From NCBI GenBank assembly GCA_022771265.1, contig JALFCG010000058.1:1-35403 (forward strand): a DNA stretch of 35,403 bases. Reading direction: 5' to 3'. Below are positions 5,406 to 6,748 of this stretch, piece by piece. This DNA is from Prevotella sp. Lineage in GTDB: Bacteria; Bacteroidota; Bacteroidia; Bacteroidales; Bacteroidaceae. Position 1 is the first letter of the stretch, and each line of letters begins with the position of its first letter. The position numbers were made by a program, and so were the translations under genes. A model generated the notes under the pieces. It saw only the letters and a program-made list of their open reading frames with translations, was not told where the DNA came from and did not search any database.

Positions 5406-6332
5406 CTAAATGAGCCGTTTATGGCGGAAAATCCACCAAAACAGGCCTGAAACAGCCACTGAAATGACTATTGCGATGAAAAAGCCGTAATGGTTTGATT
5501 CCATGCCGTTGACAAGGTTCATACCGAAAAGACTGGCTATAAGAGTCGGGAACATCATGAGAATCGACACCGACGTGAGCGTTCGCATCACCGTGTTCAT
5601 GTTGTTGTTGATGATGGAAGAATAGGTGTCCATCGTCGACTCCAAGATGTTGGAATAGATGTTGGTCGTTTCACGGGCCTGGGTCATCTCGATGTTGACG
5701 TCTTCGATAAGGTCGGCGTCAAGTTCGTCAATCTGCAGCTTGAACTTCAGTTTCGACAGCAGGGTCTCGTTGCCGCGGATGGAGGTGACGAAATAGGTCA
5801 GTGAGTCCTGAAGGCGGCTAAGTCCGATGAGTGACTCGTTGTTCACCTCACGGTCGAGATTTCTTTTTGCCTTGTCGATAAGGCTGCTGATTTGTTTCAG
5901 CCGCTTAAGGTACCACACTGCCGAAGAGAGGAACAGGCGGAAAATCATGTCAACATAATCGGTGAAACCCTCTCCGCGCTTCTGTTGGTAGCTCACGAAA
6001 TCAATCATCATGTTTGTCTCGTAGTAGCACACCGTGATGGTAACGTCGCGCTTGTGGATGATGCCGAGCGGCACTGTGGTGTAAGGTGTGCGTGAGCGTA
6101 TTTCCTTTACGTAAGGAATACGCAGGATGATGAGCATCCACCCGTCGTCATATTCATAACGGGCGCGCTCGTCGGTGTCGCTGATGTCCGACAAGAAATA
6201 ATCGGGAATGTTGAATTGCTTCTCAAGATGAGTCTGGTCTTCCTCCGTTGGACACGTGACCTGTATCCAGCAGTTTGGTTCCCAGTCGTTGATGGCTGTC
6301 AGACCGCCATTAGTGTTCCAATATGTTCTCAT
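5406..6332 (-). CDS. corA: CorA family divalent-cation (Mg2+) transporter
   Basis: C-terminal FGMNLVNGMES (GMN motif) with two TM segments; start at MRTYWNTNGG (6332) preferred over ORF-track start 6401. Confidence 0.85.
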   Translation of the reverse strand: MRTYWNTNGGLTAINDWEPNCWIQVTCPTEEDQTHLEKQFNIPDYFLSDISDTDERARYEYDDGWMLIILRIPYVKEIRSRTPYTTVPLGIIHKRDVTITVCYYETNMMIDFVSYQQKRGEGFTDYVDMIFRLFLSSAVWYLKRLKQISSLIDKAKRNLDREVNNESLIGLSRLQDSLTYFVTSIRGNETLLSKLKFKLQIDELDADLIEDVNIEMTQARETTNIYSNILESTMDTYSSIINNNMNTVMRTLTSVSILMMFPTLIASLFGMNLVNGMESNHYGFFIAIVISVAVSGLFWWIFRHKRLI

Positions 6333-6335
6333 TGT

Positions 6336-6398
6336 GCCAATCCTGTTTTTGCGGTTACAATAATTGTTGCGGCAAGAGGATTGGCTTCTTGCCATCCT
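6336..6398 (-). promoter_or_regulatory. Structured 5' leader of corA with mutually exclusive hairpins
   Basis: GCCAATCCT (6376-6384, minus sense) can pair either with AGGATTGGC (6336-6344) next to the ATG or in GAGGATGGC-aagaa-GCCAATCCTC (6375-6398). Confidence 0.45.
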
Positions 6399-6467
6399 CA
6401 CGCCAAAATACTAAAGTTTTCCGCGTGATAATCGTCCATAATTATTGAAGTTTAAGAATTTTCGGTG

Positions 6468-6475
6468 CAAAGGTA
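6468..6475 (-). promoter_or_regulatory. -7 box TACCTTTG upstream of corA
   Basis: caaaggta on + strand; implies a ~120-130 nt 5' leader if translation starts at 6332. Confidence 0.5.
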
Positions 6476-6506: not shown

Positions 6507-6534
6507 TTTGCACCCCGTAACGATTTTTTAACAT

Positions 6535-6748
6535 AAACTTAAGGAGTTACATTCAGGAGTTAAGGAGTTACATACAGGAGTTATGGAGTTTAAGGAGTTA
6601 AGGAGTTACATTCAGAAGTTAAGTTTTGGAAGTTAAGTTAAGGAGGTTAAGTTAAATGTCAATGCAAAAAAGCATTGCGCTTGGCCCACTATTGTCTTAA
6701 CTCCTTAAACTCCTTAACTCCTAAAACTTAACTCCTAAAAAAACTCCA
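6535..6748. repeat. AGGAGTTA-type octamer array followed by an inverted copy (TAACTCCT), with a central CAATGC-aaaaaa-GCATTG hairpin
   Basis: aggagttacattcaggagttaaggagttac... (about 6541-6655) and ttaactccttaaactccttaactcctaaaacttaactcc (about 6697-6740). Confidence 0.85.

Follow-up and report, generated by a model that had tools for sequence, protein, structure and literature searches.

The leader of corA in Prevotella sp. (contig JALFCG010000058.1; its 35,403 nucleotides are referred to here as the window) is probably a translational attenuator under the control of an acidic leader peptide, for which we infer Mg2+ sensing, the polarity of the response and its output. As judged by comparative sequence evidence, the anatomy of this leader consists of a selected uORF following the promoter, a hairpin near the uORF stop and an alternative pairing at the ribosome-binding region of corA. 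A leader ORF combined with mutually exclusive hairpin and start-site pairings is the anatomy of a translational attenuator. An earlier note on this leader had proposed a translational switch with start sequestration, which is borne out by order-wide conservation and by the coevolution of both pairings, while its suggestion of a possible Mg2+ riboswitch gives way to a translated acidic leader peptide, which the evidence favours as the sensor.

On the minus strand of the window, corA (5406–6332; ATG 6332–6330) encodes a CorA-family Mg2+ transporter of 308 aa that matched Pfam PF01544 with an E-value of 2.6e-50. It was the single CorA match of this kind in a search of the genome, and no MgtE was found in 9 genomes of the genus, this one included. 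A Bacteroidetes-type -7 promoter box (TAccTTTG) was read directly at 6468–6475 of the same strand, where the earlier note had also placed it, with a predicted transcription start near 6461 and a predicted leader length of about 130 nt that agrees with its estimate of 120–130 nt. In 126 of 142 leaders, the uORF ATG was preceded within 75 nt by a TAnnTTTG box, in comparison to 5.5% in shuffled sequences, and the median spacing between the two was 29 nt.

The uORF of the window (MDDYHAENFSILA*; 6439–6398, minus strand) comprises 13 codons and a stop (ATG GAC GAT TAT CAC GCG GAA AAC TTT AGT ATT TTG GCG TGA), begins 28 nt past the -7 box and lies in a different reading frame from corA. Its TGA (6400–6398) shares two bases with the beginning of the leader hairpin. 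Both pairings of the leader had been recognized in the earlier note, which overlooked the uORF that the hairpin overlaps.

Among loci chosen through CorA similarity alone, 76 of the 78 from Prevotellaceae (after deduplication) and 24 of the 32 from other Bacteroidales had an MDD/MDE uORF ahead of corA, where shuffling gave a mean of 0.13 for each set. The uORF frequencies are quoted from these sets only because loci fetched through the motif are biased for the uORF; the pairing tests are independent of that selection. In one of the two Prevotellaceae exceptions (L080), the peptide was present but displaced by one residue (MIDDYPAD). In the other Bacteroidales the peptide has diverged and its acidic start was retained (MDDYHPER, MDDSIPRE, MDDPYSRE, MDDGPYHS, MDEGPYHS, MDEVPDYR, MDDHHSYDY and others), with residues 2–3 being D-D or D-E throughout the order, apart from DG in L216, and a proline within residues 4–7 in 22 of 39 representatives. 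The length of the uORF ranged from about 8 to 27 codons, all three stop codons were used, the stop always preceded corA and the distance to corA represented all three frame classes, which amounts to a random frame relation.

Codon changes were counted by parsimony on a corA tree covering 87 leaders, where values for codons 1–3, as in the codon table, are conditioned by the extraction pattern. Changes at positions 1/2/3 were 0/0/10 for codon 3, 0/0/5 for codon 4, 1/4/9 for codon 5, 5/0/1 for codon 6 and 2/0/18 for codon 7, in comparison to 11–30 changes at each of the upstream flanking sites. The acidic core (Asp-Asp, codons 2–3; 6431–6436, minus strand) had no first- or second-base change in the 87 leaders, subject to the same conditioning. 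Codons 3, 4, 5 and 7 thus changed mostly at third positions and the uORF peptide is therefore, on comparative evidence, under selection. This synonymous pattern at codons 3–5 and 7 together with the variable stop, length and frame is the signature of a selected peptide and not of a CorA extension. An N-terminal extension of CorA was ruled out, as the distances to corA were spread over every frame class and stop codons lie in between. Starts of CorA at 6395 or 6401, raised earlier as the case in which the leader would be coding, were unsupported, with open frames in relatives that varied in their upstream extent and measured 308 to 404 aa, and were also disfavoured by the three frame classes of the uORF-to-corA distance. 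An amino-acid-starvation attenuator was rejected as well, since there was no conserved run of a single amino acid and only acidic positions 2–3 were kept order-wide. Codon 6 (6422–6424 in the window) was GCG, CCG or TCG, with five changes at its first base and one at its third, and codon 2 (GAC) never changed on the 87-leader tree, again within codons conditioned by extraction. The fixed third base of codons 2 and 6 suggests further constraints at the nucleotide level, for which the model offers no explanation.

The leader hairpin, assigned to the predicted ON conformation, occupies 6376–6399 of the minus strand (GAGGATGGC-AAGAA-GCCAATCCTC, read 6399–6376), with a 5' arm at 6399–6391, a loop at 6390–6386 and a 3' arm at 6385–6376. 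The hairpin described earlier at 6375–6398 is therefore real and was placed off by one. By direct reading and comparative pairing tests, the switch arm GCCAATCCT (6385–6377) is common to both pairings, and it forms a perfect 9-bp complement with AGGATTGGC (6344–6336), located 3 nt upstream of the corA ATG. This start-site partner, assigned to the predicted OFF conformation, was identified by minimum free energy (MFE), the partner-swap test and RNAalifold, and the alternative pairing, mutually exclusive with the hairpin and 3 nt before the ATG at 6332, is present as the earlier note had claimed. The MFE structure of the whole leader included the start-site pairing (z = -2.4 in comparison to shuffles). 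Locking the hairpin cost only 2.8 kcal/mol in the window leader (-33.6 versus -36.4), so that both states are modelled as accessible. A perfect 9-bp complement occurred in 2.6% of shuffles of the window leader, therefore the single-sequence case is only moderate and it is the comparative evidence that decides. An intrinsic terminator was ruled out by direct reading, as no T run follows the hairpin in the window.

The partner-swap test compared the pairing energy of each leader with its own start region and with the start regions of other species. Start-site pairing energies were -14.7 kcal/mol (own) versus -10.0 kcal/mol (swapped) for 36 representatives with <80% CorA identity and -14.2 versus -9.8 kcal/mol for 14 representatives with <60% CorA identity, and the observed value was not attained in any of 20,000 permutations (p<=5e-5). 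Coevolution of this pairing was also found inside each subclade, namely Prevotella-type, other Bacteroidaceae and distant Bacteroidales. Hairpin arms coevolved as well (-12.1 versus -7.5 kcal/mol, p<=5e-5) and the cognate advantage was about 4.6 kcal/mol for both pairings; the coevolution tests rule out a chance hairpin. From 13 Prevotella-type leaders, RNAalifold arrived at the start-site pairing on its own, with both-side changes at 6 of 10 pairs. Covariation had been named at the outset as a check on the proposed switch, and both pairings were found to coevolve by the partner-swap tests, with RNAalifold adding compensatory changes for the start-site pairing.

Geometry was also consistent between lineages. 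A single 3' arm served both the hairpin and the start-site pairing in 35 of 37 lineages, the 5' arm of the hairpin began between -6 and +12 nt from the uORF stop in all 35 of the 35 shared-hairpin lineages, and the start-site pairing extended to the corA start codon in 15 of 37. Only one post-uORF hairpin and its start-site alternative were conserved. When the 5' arm was tested as a Shine-Dalgarno (SD) mimic, its sequence resemblance to the start of corA was no more than weakly supported (p 0.011). In our modelling, start-site pairing was predicted to be higher with a ribosome at the uORF stop than with a locked hairpin in 33 of 37 lineages. The weak hairpins of some leaders (L129, L201, L202 and L205) and the modest free-energy gaps between the two states count against the model.

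The proposed mechanism is as follows. Under ample Mg2+, the ribosome would read the uORF to the end and come to cover the 5' arm of the hairpin, whose location relative to the uORF stop approximates the area covered by a terminating ribosome, and the freed 3' arm would then pair with the corA start and repress translation. Under low Mg2+, the ribosome would drop off or stall at the MDD start through intrinsic ribosome destabilization comparable to that of MgtL, and a ribosome at codons 2–4 would be too far upstream to open the hairpin, which would stay closed and allow corA to be translated. This predicted polarity, with corA on at low Mg2+, suits an importer. In MgtL, acidic residues early in the nascent chain destabilize ribosomes (PMC11282234). 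As Mg2+ counteracts this destabilization and MgtL exploits it for Mg2+ sensing (PMC11282234, PMC11552253), the M-D-D/E start is by analogy the likely Mg2+ sensor, and we infer that the Asp-Asp codons 2–3 may destabilize or stall the ribosome at low Mg2+ in the manner of MgtL/EttA (PMC11282234). The leader peptides counted only 2–3 acidic residues, fewer than MgtL, and proline was not universal, both of which count against an MgtL-like model. Translation of the uORF was previously shown to oppose corA expression in E. coli (PMC11552253).

In its logic, this system most resembles the enterobacterial corL and mgtL leaders. Like the corL-corA leader of Gammaproteobacteria, the Bacteroidales leader is located upstream of corA and has a short uORF, as indicated here by its comparative coding signature, and two mutually exclusive RNA structures. 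The corL-corA leader forms a three-way junction with two alternative stem sets, whereas a single hairpin and start-site masking are found here, and its output is Rho-dependent while masking of the start site is the output predicted for Bacteroidales. The conserved N-terminal region of CorL contains one proline and fewer acidic residues (PMC11552253), in contrast to the acidic MDD/MDE start. The mgtL-mgtA leader of Escherichia and Salmonella shares N-terminal acidic, often proline, codons with the leaders described here, and it senses Mg2+ through the ribosome dropping off when Mg2+ is low (PMC11282234). It differs in its EPDP core in comparison to MDD/MDE, in belonging to another gene and another phylum, and in its Rho-dependent output where a translational output is predicted in Bacteroidales. 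In the erm and cat attenuators, as in the Bacteroidales model, it is a ribosome on the leader ORF that decides whether a hairpin forms or the downstream start is masked. Stalling opens the mask and turns the gene on in erm/cat, whereas here the mask is predicted to close, and corA to be turned off, once the leader has been completed. The M-box (ykoK) likewise controls Mg2+ transport genes in cis, and in mycobacteria it controls a uORF (PMC12810186), but its large conserved aptamer was absent from the Bacteroidales leader by Rfam search. No prior description of a Bacteroidales corA leader or peptide was found in the open-licence literature searched.

Alternatively, the same uORF and switch may respond to another signal, such as another cation, polyamines or the translation state, which we consider unlikely and yet the strongest of the competing explanations. 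CorA proteins can carry other divalent ions. The corA gene of E. coli also responds to Mn2+ (PMC11552253), but the other targets of the motif are magnesium-transport genes as well and the acidic MDD core agrees with the known Mg2+-sensing mechanism of MgtL. There is a small chance that the leader is a direct metal-binding riboswitch in which the uORF is incidental or merely assists. Two mutually exclusive structures in the leader of a Mg2+ transporter would fit such an element, and the corA motif, which is restricted to Gammaproteobacteria, was once proposed as a riboswitch candidate (PMC6429828). Against this, conserved structure was limited to one hairpin whose sequence varies, with no structured aptamer besides, and the strongest conservation was that of the uORF at the amino-acid level. 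A search of Rfam with the window leader and 20 related loci gave no match at the gathering score and chance-level matches below it, which rules out identity with a known Rfam riboswitch and agrees with the first impression that the leader is unlike the known Mg2+ riboswitches (M-box, mgtA leader). We give an equally small chance to uORF translation setting transcription through Rho-dependent termination, as in enterobacterial corA and mgtA, with a secondary role for start-site pairing; this is the known output of CorL/MgtL (PMC11552253), but the start-site pairing coevolves precisely and its extension to the start codon in many lineages would be needless for transcription control. Chance complementarity without function in an AT-rich leader is scarcely credible, as the shuffles of one leader that reach 9 bp are outweighed by order-wide conservation and coevolution.

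The element was found in Bacteroidales and in one genome (G828) of another family in the class. Spread to other orders was ruled out, as 9 of 10 CorA loci from the other families of the class were without the leader and only G828 had it. Outside the genus, 13 of 14 order-level matches to the MDDY(H/P) motif preceded magnesium-transport genes or operons (corA, 11; ksgA-corA, 1; CNNM/CorC, 1). Upstream of a CNNM/CorC-type magnesium transporter (L128, 1501–1627), an MDDYHAER uORF of 41 codons stops 1 nt before the transporter ATG, an architecture that differs from that of corA leaders. In L122 (1501–1600), an MDDYHAEN uORF overlaps the ksgA start in another frame and a corA-family gene is next in the operon. 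A 9-codon ORF (MDDYQSDGY*) was also found 88 nt ahead of a gene for a putative lipoprotein, both in the genome of the window and in one other genus (L136 and L144, 1501–1530), with no corA nearby and no obvious matching hairpin.

A second CorA subfamily (L177, L183 and L230–L253) had a different leader consensus, GGAATGTARAA, in which an AUG is followed by UAA or UAG. This consensus was present in 20 of 26 second-subfamily loci in comparison to 3.5 expected by shuffling and sits 21–53 nt upstream of the corA start, downstream of a TAnnTTTG box. This element may represent a uORF reduced to a start and a stop codon, or an RNA motif.

It is important to note that ribosomes of Bacteroidia do not recognize SD sequences in ordinary initiation (PMC9976891). 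An SD-like sequence was nevertheless found at 33 of 39 corA starts, whereas among the other genes of related loci 5 of 93 had one, and the simplest reading is that it was retained as the switch partner, giving a concrete case of a conserved SD-like sequence in a class that does not use SD for ordinary initiation. More tentatively, and at somewhat less than even odds, we propose that Bacteroidales independently evolved a ribosome-based Mg2+ sensor, combining an MDD peptide that aborts at low Mg2+ with a start-site switch in a clade that ignores SD sequences, and that the AUG-stop leader of the second CorA subfamily would be a second such sensor. In the papers found, the only genes for which Mg2+ sensing through the translating ribosome is established are enterobacterial mgtA and, less fully, corA; if dominant gut bacteria do have an independent version across a whole order, the Mg2+ dependence of the ribosome would be a recurrent sensor solution. 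The view that corA in these bacteria is a simple gene preceded by a plain leader is corrected by our analysis, which also predicts that Bacteroides engineering could draw on an expression element tunable by Mg2+; hundreds of natural leader variants would be available for testing which nascent peptides destabilize ribosomes.

Further upstream in the window, the intergenic DNA that separates the corA promoter from the end of the peptidase gene (6531–6742) is composed of GGAGTTA-type repeats and carries a 27-nt inverted repeat (6576–6602 and 6696–6722, 96%).
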